In this document: positions 12,944 to 49,033 of the stretch, piece after piece
How positions within the stretch are numbered: position 1 is the stretch's first letter
Layout: every line of letters starts with the position of its first letter
Assembly (NCBI GenBank): GCA_902794395.1
Contig: CADBHB010000018.1
Span: 32,174 to 96,173 of the forward strand
Direction of reading: 5' to 3'
Length of the DNA: 64,000 bases
From: an uncultured Ruminococcus sp.
Lineage (GTDB): Bacteria; Bacillota; Clostridia; Oscillospirales; Acutalibacteraceae
Made by a program: the position numbers and the translations under genes
The notes under the pieces: generated by a model
Database searches by the model: none
Seen by the model: the letters and a program-made list of their open reading frames with translations, nothing else
Told to the model about the DNA's origin: nothing

Positions 12944-13118
12944 GGCCATTCAAAAGCGCAGAGCATACCTATGGCTAAGCAACCCAAAAAGTTAGCCGCA
13001 GTTATCCTCTATGTTTCATTGTGATCGCCCGGTTTAAAATCGGACATACTCCACGGAAAAACCGGCTGTAACAAGCCGCAACCTCCCGCTTCATCGCATA
13101 TCTATGTGCAGTCACGCA
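12944..13118 (-). promoter_or_regulatory. S10 operon 5' leader
   Basis: The leader of the ribosomal operon runs from the promoter near 13125 to the terminator-like hairpin. Two other stem-loops can be drawn on the minus strand: CCGGTTT with AAACCGG (13059-13065 with 13029-13035), and GGCTAA with TTAGCC (12992-12997 with 12973-12978). The order stem-stem-terminator suggests feedback control by a ribosomal protein, as L4 does in E. coli, but no specific binding site is recognised. Confidence 0.5.
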
Positions 13119-43887: not shown

Positions 43888-45234
43888 TCAGATGATGTGA
43901 CCCTTTGCGCGGATGACCTCGATCACCTGATCTACATACTTCTCGCACTCCTCGTCGGAGCCTGCCTCTACCATGACACGGATAACAGGCTCGGTGCCGG
44001 ACTCTCTGAGCAGGATCCTGCCGTTGTCACCCAGCACCTCGGCGACCTTGGCGACCTCCGCCTGTACATCGGGGTCGTTCTTCGCGTCGGGCTTGGAGTG
44101 AACTCTGACGTTCTTGAGCACCTGGGGATACATGACCATGGGAGCAGCCAGCTCGCTCATGGGCTTCTCCTTGGCGAGCATGACTTCCATCAGCTTGAGG
44201 GAGGTCAAAATGCCGTCGCCCGTGGTGGCATACTTGGAGAAGATGATATGACCGGACTCCTCGCCGCCGAGACGGTTGCCGGTTTGGAGCATATTTTCAT
44301 ACACATATTTATCGCCGACATTGACCTTGTCGTAATCGATGCCGACCTTTTCGAGCGCCTTGAACAGACCGAAGTTGCTCATAATGGTCGCTACGACCTT
44401 GTTGTTGAGCAGCTTGCCTCTTTCCTTCATATAGCAGCCGTACATATAGATGATGTGGTCGCCGGTTACTACGTTGCCCTTTTCGTCAACTGCCAGGCAG
44501 CGGTCAGCGTCGCCATCGTAGGCAAAGCCGACGTCCAGACCGTTGTCCACCACGAACTTCTGCAAATGCTGGATGTGTGTGGAGCCGCAGTCGGTATTGA
44601 TGTTATAGCCGTCGGGCTTGTCGTTGATGACATAGGTCTTGGCGCCCAGCGCGTCGAACACGCCCTTGGCGATCTGCCAGGCAGCGCCGTTGGAAACATC
44701 CAGACCGACCTTAACGCCCTTAAAGCTGTATTTGCTCATCGAGATAAGATAGCCGATGTAGCGGTTTCTGCCCGCCACATAGTCGACGGTCCTGCCGATG
44801 TCCTCACGCTGAGCTACGGGGATCTCGAGCTTGTCGTCGATGTATTCCTCGACCTTCAGCAGGGTCTCCTCCTCCATCTTCTCGCCCTTGCCGTTGAGCA
44901 GCTTGATGCCGTTGTCGTAGAAGGGGTTGTGGGAAGCGGAGATCATAATGCCGCAGTCAAAGTCGTCGATACGGGTGATGTACGCGACGGACGGCGTGGT
45001 GGTGACGTGCATGATATAAGCGTCTGCGCCGCTGGCCATCAAGCCTGTGCACAGCGCGTACTCAAACATATAGGATGAACGGCGGGTGTCCTTGCCGATG
45101 ACTACCTTAGCTTTTTTGCCCATGTTGGCGCCAAAGTACCAGCCGAGGAAACGGCCGATCTTTACCGCGTGCTCAAATGTGAGATTCTTGTTGGCTTCGC
45201 CTCTGAAGCCGTCTGTACCGAAATACTTGCCCAT
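43888..45234 (-). CDS. glmM: Phosphoglucosamine mutase
   Basis: 448 residues. The phosphoserine loop is GIMISASHNPFYDNGI near residue 100, the metal loop is AYDGDADRCL, and the sugar-binding GEESGHII and RESGTEPVIRVMVE are all present. It converts GlcN6P to GlcN1P. Its start overlaps the acetyltransferase stop by one base, and the order nagB-acetyltransferase-glmM on one strand gives a path from fructose-6-P to GlcNAc1P. A ribozyme of the glmS class is upstream of the operon. Confidence 0.95.
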   Translation of the reverse strand: MGKYFGTDGFRGEANKNLTFEHAVKIGRFLGWYFGANMGKKAKVVIGKDTRRSSYMFEYALCTGLMASGADAYIMHVTTTPSVAYITRIDDFDCGIMISASHNPFYDNGIKLLNGKGEKMEEETLLKVEEYIDDKLEIPVAQREDIGRTVDYVAGRNRYIGYLISMSKYSFKGVKVGLDVSNGAAWQIAKGVFDALGAKTYVINDKPDGYNINTDCGSTHIQHLQKFVVDNGLDVGFAYDGDADRCLAVDEKGNVVTGDHIIYMYGCYMKERGKLLNNKVVATIMSNFGLFKALEKVGIDYDKVNVGDKYVYENMLQTGNRLGGEESGHIIFSKYATTGDGILTSLKLMEVMLAKEKPMSELAAPMVMYPQVLKNVRVHSKPDAKNDPDVQAEVAKVAEVLGDNGRILLRESGTEPVIRVMVEAGSDEECEKYVDQVIEVIRAKGHII

Positions 45235-45896
45235 CAGTCAGCCTTCCTTTCTACTATATCGCCGCTGTTCTTAAAGATACAGTTCTCGGGGATAACGCCG
45301 CGCACACATGAGGTGGGATATACGCTGGCGTGTCTGCCGATCACCGTGCCGGGGTTGCAAACCGCGTTGCAGCCGACCTCAACATAGTCGCCCAGCATAG
45401 CGCCGAATTTCTTGATGCCCGTCTCAATGCTCTCGGTGCCGTTGTGGACAACGACGAGCTTTTTGTCGGACTTGACATTTGAGGTGATGGAGCCGGCGCC
45501 CATGTGGGAGAAATAACCCAGGATGGAGTCGCCGACGTAGTTGTAGTGCGGGGTCTGAACGTGGTCAAAGAGGATAACGTTCTTAAGCTCTACGGAGTTG
45601 CCGACCACGCAGTTGGCGCCTACCAGCGCCGAGCCGCGGACAAACGCACCGTGTCTTACCTCGGTCTCGGGACCGATGATGCAGGGAGCGCCCAAATAGG
45701 CTGAGGGGAATACGGTAGCGGTCTTGTGTACCCATACGTTTTCGGATACCTCTTGGTAATCGTCACCGAGAGTGGGACCGAGCTCGAGGATGAAGTCCTT
45801 GATGCCCTTCAGCGCTTCCCACGGATAGGTGAACTGCGAAAGATAATCCTTTGCAAGGGTATGGTCAAGATCATAAAGGTCTTTGATAGTGTACAT
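45234..45896 (-). CDS. GlmU-like left-handed beta-helix acetyltransferase (no uridylyltransferase domain)
   Basis: 220 residues made mostly of hexapeptide repeats (for example FPSAYLGAPCIIGPETEVRH). His117 in PHYNYVGDSILG lines up with the catalytic His363 of E. coli GlmU (HLTYLGDA), and GAGSITSN resembles GAGTITCN. The N-terminal pyrophosphorylase domain of GlmU is missing. It probably acetylates GlcN1P to GlcNAc1P. It overlaps nagB and glmM by one base on each side. Exact substrate is an inference from alignment by eye and from the operon. Confidence 0.8.
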   Translation of the reverse strand: MYTIKDLYDLDHTLAKDYLSQFTYPWEALKGIKDFILELGPTLGDDYQEVSENVWVHKTATVFPSAYLGAPCIIGPETEVRHGAFVRGSALVGANCVVGNSVELKNVILFDHVQTPHYNYVGDSILGYFSHMGAGSITSNVKSDKKLVVVHNGTESIETGIKKFGAMLGDYVEVGCNAVCNPGTVIGRHASVYPTSCVRGVIPENCIFKNSGDIVERKAD

Positions 45897-46687
45897 TAAA
45901 GTCTCTCCTTCTTTTCGATGTCGAGGAAGTATTTGTAGGTGTCAACGGTCAGCTCGCCGCAGGCAGCCTCGTCGCAGGCGATGATGGCGCCGTTGTGCAT
46001 CTGCAGAGCAGAGCAGGTCCACTTGTGGGAAACGCTGCCCTCTACGGTCTCGGCAAGCGCTCTGGCCTTGTTGTGGCCGTTGATGAGGATCAAAACTTCC
46101 TTGGAATCGGTAACGGTGCCTACGCCGACGGAAAGCGCCTGAGCGGGAACCGCCTCGGGATCGTTGCCGAAGAAACGGGAATTGACGATGCGGGTGTCGG
46201 TGGTGAGGTTTCTCACGCCGGTGCGGGACGCAAGGCTGGTGAAGGGCTCGTTGAAGGCGATGTGGCCGTCAACGCCGATGCCGCCCATAAACAGGTCGAT
46301 GCCGCCGTAAGAAGCGATCTTCTCCTCGTAGCGCGCGCACTCACCCTCGGGATCGTCGGTCATTCCGTTTAGGATATTGATGTTTTCGGGTTTCATATCT
46401 ACAAGGTGATCGAAGAAGTTGTCGTGCATAAAGTACCAGTAGCTCTGATCGTGCTCGTGAGGCAGCCCGAGGTATTCGTCCATGTTGAAGGTCACCACGT
46501 TGGCAAAGCTAAGCTCGCCGTTTTGATTCATGGTGTAGAGCTCCTTGTAAACGCCGATGGGCGAAGAACCGGTGGGCAGACCGAGCACGAAGGGACGGTC
46601 CTCTTTGTGAGCCTTGATTTTCTGAGCGATGTAATTTGCCGCCCACTTGCACATTTTTTCATAATTGTCCTGGATAACAACTCTCAT
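45896..46687 (-). CDS. nagB: Glucosamine-6-phosphate deaminase/isomerase
   Basis: 263 residues. Motifs: LGLPTGSSPIGVY (phosphate loop), VTFNMDEYLGLP (Asp base near residue 70), GIGVDGHIAFNEP with catalytic His, and GSVSHKWTCSALQMH at the end. NagB catalyses GlcN6P + water = fructose-6-P + ammonia, reversibly. Here it heads an operon with an acetyltransferase and GlmM and lies behind a glmS-type ribozyme. It may run in the synthetic direction in place of GlmS. Standard catabolic partners (nagA, nagE) are not in the window. Confidence 0.93.
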   Translation of the reverse strand: MRVVIQDNYEKMCKWAANYIAQKIKAHKEDRPFVLGLPTGSSPIGVYKELYTMNQNGELSFANVVTFNMDEYLGLPHEHDQSYWYFMHDNFFDHLVDMKPENINILNGMTDDPEGECARYEEKIASYGGIDLFMGGIGVDGHIAFNEPFTSLASRTGVRNLTTDTRIVNSRFFGNDPEAVPAQALSVGVGTVTDSKEVLILINGHNKARALAETVEGSVSHKWTCSALQMHNGAIIACDEAACGELTVDTYKYFLDIEKKERL

Positions 46688-46780
46688 AATCTATTTACTC
46701 CTTAATAATCTTAATAGTTTTGGTAAAGCGGTGTGGAGAGAACCTTTGTTACAGTGTTGATTCTGCTTTTTCCTTTCTCT

Positions 46781-46912
46781 CTGACGACGCACCCTGGCAG
46801 ACAAAATGATAGGCTAACAGTCTGCGTGTTCGCCGTGGCAGCATCCGCCGAGTCTTTCGATAACTGCCATCCCTCGTCACCCTCTGTGGGGCCTTGGCGC
46901 TAATAGTCCCCG
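46781..46912 (-). ncRNA. glmS-class self-cleaving ribozyme upstream of nagB
   Basis: Read on the minus strand, the conserved core of the glmS ribozyme is seen in order: cleavage site A|GCGCC (between 46901 and 46900), TGACGAGG (46872-46879), stem P3 TGGCAG (46864-46869) with CTGCCA (46836-46841), TTATCGA (46857-46863) and TCGGCGGATG (46842-46851), then stem P4 GCAGAC/GTCTGC (46820-46825 with 46797-46802). B. subtilis and T. tengcongensis ribozymes share these blocks. The known class uses GlcN6P as cofactor and destroys glmS mRNA. Here it lies 94 bases before nagB, not glmS. A weak -10 (TATACT, 46941-46946) is just upstream; no clear -35. Confidence 0.9.
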
Positions 46913-47061
46913 TTACTCCTTTCTGCCGGCGGCTATTTTAAGTATATATCTGACATCGCAGTAAAATGCGTATCATCCCTGATGATAATTGCTCGCACAA
47001 TCAAAAAAATTTTACCATATGAAAAGGCAAAAGTCAAGAAAAAACCGCCTGCGGCAATATA

Positions 47062-47089
47062 TAAAAGGGACACGTAAATAACGCGTCCC
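47062..47089 (-). terminator. Terminator after the CapD-like gene
   Basis: GGGACGCG pairs with CGTGTCCC around TTATTTA, followed on the minus strand by TTTTATAT. It separates the sugar dehydratase gene from the ribozyme leader region. Confidence 0.85.
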
Positions 47090-47095
47090 TGAAAA

Positions 47096-48970
47096 TCATG
47101 ATTCGTGATGGAAGGTAGGTACCAGATCGCTGAGGATCTCCACCGTTTTTTCGCTGTCATTCGCCTGAGCGCTTTCGTGCAGGCGGTTGAGCTTATAGAG
47201 CATTTCGGTGGGGTCGATCTGTATCTGGTTGCCGATAAATATTTTTTTGTTGGCGGTGGATTTAAGCCCTTCCTCGTCCATCAGCAGCTCCTCAAAGAGC
47301 TTCTCGCCCGGACGCAGCCCCGTAAAGACTATCGGGACCTCCTCGTAGGGCACCTTGCCGTACATACGTATCAGGTTTTCCGCCAGCGTGGTGATCTTGA
47401 CAGGCGCGCCCATATCGAGCACGAAGATCTCGCCGCCCTTTGCCATAGCGCCCGCCTCAAGGACCAGCGACACCGCCTCGGGAATGGTCATAAAGTAGCG
47501 GATGATGTCGGGGTGGGTGACGGTGACCGGAGAACCGCTCTCGATCTGACGGCGGAACAGCGGGATGACCGAGCCGTTTGAGCCCAGCACGTTGCCGAAG
47601 CGGGTGGTGACGAACTCAGTGTGCGTAGTGGTCTGCGCCTTGTATTGGATTATCATTTCGCAGGCGCGCTTGGTAGCGCCCATGACATTCGTGGGGTTGA
47701 CCGCCTTGTCGGTGGAGATCATAACAAACTTATCCGCCTTGTAGAACTCGGCGAGCGTGGCAACATTGAAGGTGCCGAAGACGTTGTTTTTCACCGCTTC
47801 CTCGGGAACGGTCTCCATGAGCGGCACATGCTTGTGCGCAGCCGCGTGAAAGACGATCTGCGGGCGGTAGGTCTTGAAGATGCTCTCCATCTTGTCGTAG
47901 TCGCGCACCGAGGCGATAAGCGTAACCAGATCGAGCTCTTCTCCGTACTCCAGCCGCAGCTCCTGCTGGATGTCGTAGGCGTTGTTTTCGTAAATATCTA
48001 CAATTATTATCTGCTTAGGGCTGTACTTAGCAATTTGGCGCACCAGCTCGCTGCCTATCGAACCGCCGCCGCCCGTCACCATGCAGACCTTGTCGCAGAT
48101 GAATTTGGCGATCTTGTTGCGGTTGAATTCTATCGGCTTTCTGCCCAGCAGGTCCTCTATCTTGATCTCCTTTGCCTGTGAGATAAGCTGAGGGTCGTTG
48201 TCCTTGAGCAGCAGCTCGCTTAGGTAAGGCACTACCTTGATGGTGCATTTTGTGGAGGAACAGTAGTCGAGTATGCGGCGCTTTTCCTCCTCCTCGCAGG
48301 AGGGGATGGCTACTATGATGTTGTCGATATTATAATTCCTGCACAGCTCGGGGATCTCAGCGGTGATGCCCGCTACCTCTACGCCGTACAGCCTGGAATG
48401 GAGCTTGGTGGGATCGTCATCTACCAGACACACGGGCAAAAGATTTGAGGAGGGGTTCTTTGCATCGGTCTCGGCATTACGTATCTCGGTGAGGATCATC
48501 CGTCCCGCCTGACCTGCGCCGACTATCATCGTGCGCTGCAGATTTTCCTGTCTGCCTACCTCTGTAAGCCTGAGAAACGTGCGTTTGAAGGCAAAACGGA
48601 ACAGCAGCACGCCCAAGGAAGCGATAATAAAAAACAATCCGAAAAACACCAGGCGTGGTCTGAATCCGATAATGTTCAGTATGGTGAAGCCCAAGCCGAA
48701 GCCCGCTGTCATCGCAGCGCCGCACATCACGTAATCGCGGATGTTAAAATACCGCCACAATCTGGAATACCCGCCGAATATCAGCAGCATAAGCTCACAG
48801 GTAAGCAGGTCTATGATAATATAATAGAGCACAAATCCGTTCGGCTCAAACTGAAAATACTCGCGAAACGGTCTCAGCCCCAAAAAGTAATTAAGCGTGA
48901 TACCGCTAAGCGAAATAATGAGAATATCCGCAAGCATCAAAACAACTTTGCGAGAATTAAACCTACTCAT
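47096..48970 (-). CDS. Membrane-anchored nucleotide-sugar 4,6-dehydratase/epimerase (CapD/PglF/WbpM type)
   Basis: 624 residues from the ATG at 48970, after GGGAGCAGGG; a TTG five codons upstream is less likely. About four N-terminal membrane segments (to ~110), an N-terminal Rossmann-like part (IVGAGQAGRMILTEI), then the SDR domain with VTGGGGSIGSELVRQI and DLVTLIASVRDYDKM. The active-site YxxxK is not in classical form: SDR of this type use STDKAVNPTNVMGATKR (T/S-M-K variant). UDP-GlcNAc is the usual substrate, leading to special amino sugars for surface polysaccharide. It faces the nagB operon, which makes its precursor. Confidence 0.92.
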   Translation of the reverse strand: MSRFNSRKVVLMLADILIISLSGITLNYFLGLRPFREYFQFEPNGFVLYYIIIDLLTCELMLLIFGGYSRLWRYFNIRDYVMCGAAMTAGFGLGFTILNIIGFRPRLVFFGLFFIIASLGVLLFRFAFKRTFLRLTEVGRQENLQRTMIVGAGQAGRMILTEIRNAETDAKNPSSNLLPVCLVDDDPTKLHSRLYGVEVAGITAEIPELCRNYNIDNIIVAIPSCEEEEKRRILDYCSSTKCTIKVVPYLSELLLKDNDPQLISQAKEIKIEDLLGRKPIEFNRNKIAKFICDKVCMVTGGGGSIGSELVRQIAKYSPKQIIIVDIYENNAYDIQQELRLEYGEELDLVTLIASVRDYDKMESIFKTYRPQIVFHAAAHKHVPLMETVPEEAVKNNVFGTFNVATLAEFYKADKFVMISTDKAVNPTNVMGATKRACEMIIQYKAQTTTHTEFVTTRFGNVLGSNGSVIPLFRRQIESGSPVTVTHPDIIRYFMTIPEAVSLVLEAGAMAKGGEIFVLDMGAPVKITTLAENLIRMYGKVPYEEVPIVFTGLRPGEKLFEELLMDEEGLKSTANKKIFIGNQIQIDPTEMLYKLNRLHESAQANDSEKTVEILSDLVPTFHHES

Positions 48971-49033
48971 GTTCCCTGCTCCCAATCTTATATAATCTTA
49001 TATTACCCAAACTACCCTATTATACTAAATGCC

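Follow-up and report, generated by a model that had tools for sequence, protein, structure and literature searches.

The glmS ribozyme usually lies in front of glmS, and this placement is not part of the definition of the RNA. The closest known counterpart is the RF00234 ribozyme on glmS mRNA, for example that of Bacillus subtilis (PMC6171935). As far as that source describes it, the RNA of the present locus has the same cleavage site, core motifs and helix layout, the same position in the leader, and the same logic of product feedback. Unlike the Bacillus subtilis ribozyme (PMC6171935, in the part cited), it lies before nagB or a nagB/act/glmM cluster; its P2 is short, its P4a region strongly conserved and its P3.1 loop variable. 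The NagB reaction is reversible, and NagB is anabolic in Giardia (the cited part of PMC4281351). The same role as GlcN6P synthase is proposed here, but Giardia lamblia is a eukaryote for which the cited part of that source mentions no ribozyme, whereas the present NagB is bacterial, clustered with glmM, and often accompanied by a retained glmS. Akkermansia muciniphila is also a gut bacterium, and its NagB was the only candidate for GlcN6P synthesis (PMC5902328). The cited part of that study reports that this enzyme is GlcNAc-dependent, has a Km for NH4 of 41 mM, and at physiological levels only deaminates and cannot make GlcN6P; it doubts natural GlcN6P synthesis by bacterial NagB. As far as the sources were consulted, the literature describes no glmS ribozyme in front of nagB; the two distribution surveys of McCown and colleagues, in which prior notice is possible, stand outside these sources.

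The window is the whole stretch of 64,000 nucleotides analysed here, from an uncultured Ruminococcus sp. Its minus strand probably carries an operon of nagB, act and glmM headed by a glmS ribozyme, in which NagB would be mainly synthetic and GlcN6P would repress NagB through the ribozyme.

The ribozyme and its locus

From its sequence, the element at 46731-46910(-) is confirmed as a ribozyme of the glmS class that precedes nagB. RF00234 matches 46762-46912(-) with 31.4 bits and an E value of 1.2e-5 in the 501 bases searched. The gathering score, the curation threshold of the model, is 37 bits, and a scan of the whole window at gathering scores therefore reports no RF00234 here. The original prediction assigned the element to the glmS class and named RF00234 as the check. 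The class is supported by the core motifs, by RF00234, by R2 and by covariation, while the window's own RF00234 match, in an RNA with a long P3.1 loop, stays under the cut-off. In an RF00234 run on 18 loci, all 14 ribozyme-bearing relatives exceed the cut-off with 40.7-79.4 bits; apart from L056 (Ruminococcaceae bacterium P7), which has 40.7 bits and is also long-looped, they score 55.6-79.4 bits. The other four loci, glmS loci of the window's genus, gave no match. R1 gives the window 139.5 bits, but the window is in its training set. R2 avoids this circularity: it comes from 21 named loci of untold genus with NagB 77-95% identical to the window's, and neither the window's genome nor any of the congener loci L024-L053 is among them. 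With R2, 46731-46910(-) reaches 132.3 bits (E 2.2e-33 after a short calibration) and no other place in the window exceeds 11.8 bits, which together with the RF00234 E value puts the match far beyond chance.

The motifs first named are present on the minus strand: GCGCC preceded by A46901, TGACGAGG, TGGCAG/CTGCCA, TTATCGA, and TCGGCGGATG. The ribozyme core, A|GCGCC, GACGAGG, TTATCGA, and TCGGCGGATG, is there in order; across 38 aligned sequences most of its letters vary little or not at all, those at the start of TTATCGA somewhat more. The cleavage site predicted at the outset, between A46901 and G46900, is supported. P3 (46836..46869) pairs TGGCAG at 46869-46864 with CTGCCA at 46841-46836 and encloses TTATCGA and TCGGCGGATG; 100% of its cells are paired in the 38 sequences, and four of its six pairs have two-sided changes. 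P3.1 (46785..46835) pairs CGGCG at 46835-46831 with CGTCG at 46789-46785, according to alignment A1, the R1 match and the pair counts. Its loop, 46790-46830, has 41 bases in the window versus about 7 in the R1 consensus. P4 and P4a (46737..46781) comprise a conserved AAAAAGC run and GTAACA. The covarying P4 joins about 46781-46775 with 46743-46737 and has two-sided changes in all seven pairs, and P4a joins CAG at 46765-46763 with CTG at 46754-46752 and has them in two of three. Two details of the original prediction were not borne out. The P4 it proposed, GCAGAC at 46825-46820 with GTCTGC at 46802-46797, is rejected: it is a hairpin within the P3.1 loop, and covariation places P4 elsewhere; and the element does not end at 46781 but reaches about 46731. 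The P3.1 loop also contains GTTAGCCTATCATT, which is present in full or nearly so in the leaders L025, L036, L056, and L057, while the P3.1 inserts of other relatives are unrelated to it or absent.

The alignment holds 38 leaders out of 61 different leaders extracted. It shows two-sided changes in 17 of 30 pairs, with 96.8% of cells paired. None of 500 shuffled alignments reached the value of the real one. Relatedness alone can beat shuffles without structure, but a slid control, with 33-47% of cells paired against 96.8% in register, agrees with structure.

The upstream neighbour is a polysaccharide-synthesis gene (Polysacc_synt_2, 47096-48985(-)), which ends at 47096. Just behind it on the same strand, a consensus scan gives a terminator-like hairpin at 47066..47090, with 10 pairs and then a T-rich tail. 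A promoter-like site at 47009..47037(-), TTGACT-17-TAAAAT with a TG ahead of its -10 hexamer, has 10 of 12 matches; the scan of both strands of the region found two such sites versus 0.9 expected. The ribozyme starts about 100 bases 3' of this site. Behind it on the minus strand follow a nagB ribosome-binding site recognised by eye (AAGGAG, 46698..46703) and, as had been predicted, nagB itself (45896..46687, ATG at 46687). Its 263-residue product belongs to the glucosamine-6-phosphate deaminase family (TIGR00502 379.6 bits, cut-off 236.9). The gene labelled act here (45234..45896(-)) encodes a hexapeptide acyltransferase of 220 residues that resembles the acetyltransferase half of GlmU; its best NCBIfam matches are to the C-terminal portion of GlmU-type models, and none of them reaches its cut-off. 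The phosphoglucosamine mutase gene glmM lies at 43888..45234(-) (TIGR01455 532.3 bits, cut-off 447.55). The ribozyme, nagB, act, and glmM are presumably co-transcribed as one operon. An S10-Clostridia ribosomal-protein leader is also present in the window, at 13025-13102 with 52 bits.

Linkage to nagB and the distribution of glmS

Among 120 genomes of the genus, 58 have a close NagB and 57 have the ribozyme. In all 57 it lies at most 600 bases upstream of the close nagB and in none before glmS, so the linkage seen in the window holds throughout this sample. The 58th genome (G153) has only a NagB fragment of 45 residues, and no ribozyme was found in the 62 genomes without a close NagB. The genus has 66 ribozyme matches, and one further match (G194:C29) lies at a contig edge; long-insert members score 77-83 bits with R1. 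In a glmS tree of 48 proteins, the 20 rows from nagB genomes fall on one side of one branch. This single clade makes the linkage in the sampled congeners one event or inheritance.

The 80 named NagB loci include some congeners, with five leaders identical to congener leaders. The ribozyme is present in 36 of them, 30 times at most 430 bases before nagB and six times before another member of the cluster, act or glmM; behind it stands nagB or the nagB/act/glmM set, in several gene orders. At L068, L072, and L092 the next gene-like open frame after nagB is convergent as judged by eye, which leaves nagB as the only evident target of the ribozyme. At L078 the ribozyme points towards act-nagB-glmM and has glmS on its upstream side.

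An order-wide draw gave a ribozyme match in 85 of 394 genomes, and the best 30 of the 85 were inspected. Four of these 30 lie before nagB (135.8-153.2 bits with R1), two of them in another family. The remaining 26 (at most 94.9 bits) comprise 23 before glmS, including one on a short contig (L262), and three between convergent genes. In those three (L237, L239, and L247, about 1500-1650 on the reverse strand, 83-95 bits with R1) the ribozyme precedes neither glmS nor nagB; its neighbours are by eye malQ and a CAAX-protease/hydrolase gene, and a hairpin follows soon after each. The orientation of the ribozyme relative to the two flanking genes is opposite in L237 and L239. In the two ribozyme-nagB loci of another family, NagB shares 94% (L235) and 89% (L236) identity with that of the window, which points to horizontal transfer as a likely origin. 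A family draw with RF00234 gave 12 matches in 11 of 150 genomes; besides the window, nine lie before glmS, one behind glmM, and one at a contig end. At L022:1501-1652 a glmS ribozyme of 61.6 bits follows glmM immediately and is itself followed by a terminator-like hairpin recognised by eye, a position that would suit the 3' untranslated region of act-glmM.

The genome of the window has a glmS of its own, which is unbroken (767.8 bits, no stops). Full replacement of glmS in this organism is thus rejected. RF00234 has no match near this gene, and a second ribozyme on it is likewise rejected: the other RF00234 matches have at most 18.7 bits and lie elsewhere, the best (L002) among coding sequence. 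A regular-expression match to the core in the glmS coding sequence of L141 is ascribed to chance; RF00234 gives no match for L141. A glmS match is kept in 52 of the 58 congeners with a close NagB (broken in one of these), which indicates that NagB is not their sole source of GlcN6P. Loss of glmS is not enriched in this group (6/58 versus 4/55 without glmS, P 0.74). In G182, which is 100% complete and carries ribozyme-nagB, glmS is fragmented, barring an assembly error. Among 50 of the 80 named nagB genomes, of unstated completeness, 13 have no glmS match (E 1e-40) versus one without the control gene ligA (P 8e-4); G273 may be the same species as G260, as their leaders look alike.

Seven congeners (L142-L148) have a divergent NagB directly behind glmM, with 36-39% identity and 236 residues in the six translated. 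No glmS match (E 1e-60) was found in any of the seven, three of which are 97-99% complete, and glmS is absent in 7/7 versus 10/113 of the others (P 3e-7). No ribozyme match was found in these genomes either. This NagB is a second, separate candidate for the replacement of glmS.

In the window's genome an ammonium-transporter/PII gene, recognised by eye, precedes glmS on the same strand at a distance of 198 bases. The neighbourhoods of glmS were compared in a subset, to which 20 nagB genomes contributed 21 loci and 25 congeners lacking nagB contributed 28. Such a gene adjoins glmS in 7 of the 21 (three upstream, four downstream), and in none of the 28 upstream and 20 downstream stretches of the congeners without nagB; these counts share ancestry. 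This suggests that GlmS may serve at low ammonium and NagB at high ammonium.

Direction of the NagB reaction

The residues D140, H142, and E147, presumably the catalytic ones of NagB, are kept in all 65 ribozyme-linked NagBs longer than 240 residues. The segment SRTRIKTLT of four solved homologues reads SRTGVRNLT in the window's NagB, and G stands in the place of R158 in 108 of the 109 NagBs compared, the six divergent ones apart. R158, K160, and T161 (E. coli numbering) are taken here to be residues of the allosteric GlcNAc6P site. The apparent loss of residues that align with this site counts for synthesis, as do the cluster partners act and glmM: if NagB is synthetic, the three enzymes would convert fructose-6-P to GlcNAc-1-P. 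A nagA match (E 1e-20) was found in 0 of the 120 genus genomes; of 14 control genomes the same search detected nagA in eight, but not in Bacillus subtilis, an organism with NagA (PMC6171935, in the part cited), so the absence is suggestive only. It is genus-wide and not special to the nagB clade. The argument that a GlcN6P-dependent off-switch has the wrong sign for a breakdown enzyme and the right one for a synthetic enzyme is supported: the effect of the switch would be product feedback on GlcN6P synthesis. The operon partners, the loci with ribozyme and nagB alone, the nagB genomes with a broken glmS or no glmS match and, within the sensitivity of the search, the absence of nagA matches speak for this sign.

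The ribozyme could also be a remnant of a lost glmS, or could now serve glmM and act, with a catabolic nagB placed there by chance; this account is unlikely. Two loci elsewhere in the order (L240 and L260) have glmM, ribozyme, and glmS in a row, and glmS is still in the nagB cluster in L082 and L112, both with the ribozyme, and in L097 without it. Against this, the core and pairs look held by selection, L068, L072, and L092 have no other gene of the set behind nagB, and the ribozyme of L078 sits behind glmS and before act-nagB-glmM. A changed ligand is still less probable. The fold would be kept and would answer another amine or sugar phosphate, so that the sign could not be read from GlcN6P. 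The strongly conserved 3' part of the ribozyme is compatible with this, as is the R1 gap in the order draw between the four of nagB type (135.8-153.2 bits) and all others (at most 94.9). Part of that gap, however, follows from the training of R1 on loci of the nagB type, and genus members with long inserts score 77-83 bits. Against a changed ligand, the core motifs match the Rfam consensus, all 14 ribozyme loci exceed the RF00234 cut-off, and the downstream genes handle GlcN6P itself.

The least probable account, and a very improbable one, is that NagB works in both directions to hold the level of GlcN6P, the ribozyme preventing loss of GlcN6P only indirectly. The reversibility of the reaction (PMC4281351, in the part cited) and the glmS that most of these genomes also keep are in its favour, but by reasoning GlcN6P would have to induce, not repress, a valve for its own excess.

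Proposed mechanism and significance

In the preferred reading, a mainly synthetic NagB under its ribozyme, NagB would form GlcN6P from fructose-6-P and ammonium, and GlmM and the acetyltransferase would pull this product towards GlcNAc-1-P. Accumulated GlcN6P would act as the cofactor of the ribozyme, and the leader would be cleaved between 46901 and 46900. RNase J is present and would degrade the mRNA with its 5'-OH, a route as in Bacillus, and the level of NagB would fall. The ribozyme would then exert ordinary product feedback on a GlcN6P synthase, as GlcN6P would lower its own synthase. The unusual part is which enzyme acts as this synthase, not the feedback logic. A wider proposal, tentative and with slightly less than an even chance, is that Clostridia of the rumen and gut possess a second amino-sugar route, dependent on ammonium, in which a feedback-controlled NagB with a captured ribozyme works beside or instead of GlmS. 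NagB beside GlmS would resemble glutamate dehydrogenase beside GS-GOGAT.

A GlcN6P-sensing off-switch kept on nagB would be testimony from evolution itself as to which way the enzyme runs. If this is true, the catabolic annotation of nagB is wrong in these gut lineages, and their cell-wall sugar synthesis draws on free ammonium. Rfam glmS matches with nagB behind them would mark such organisms.
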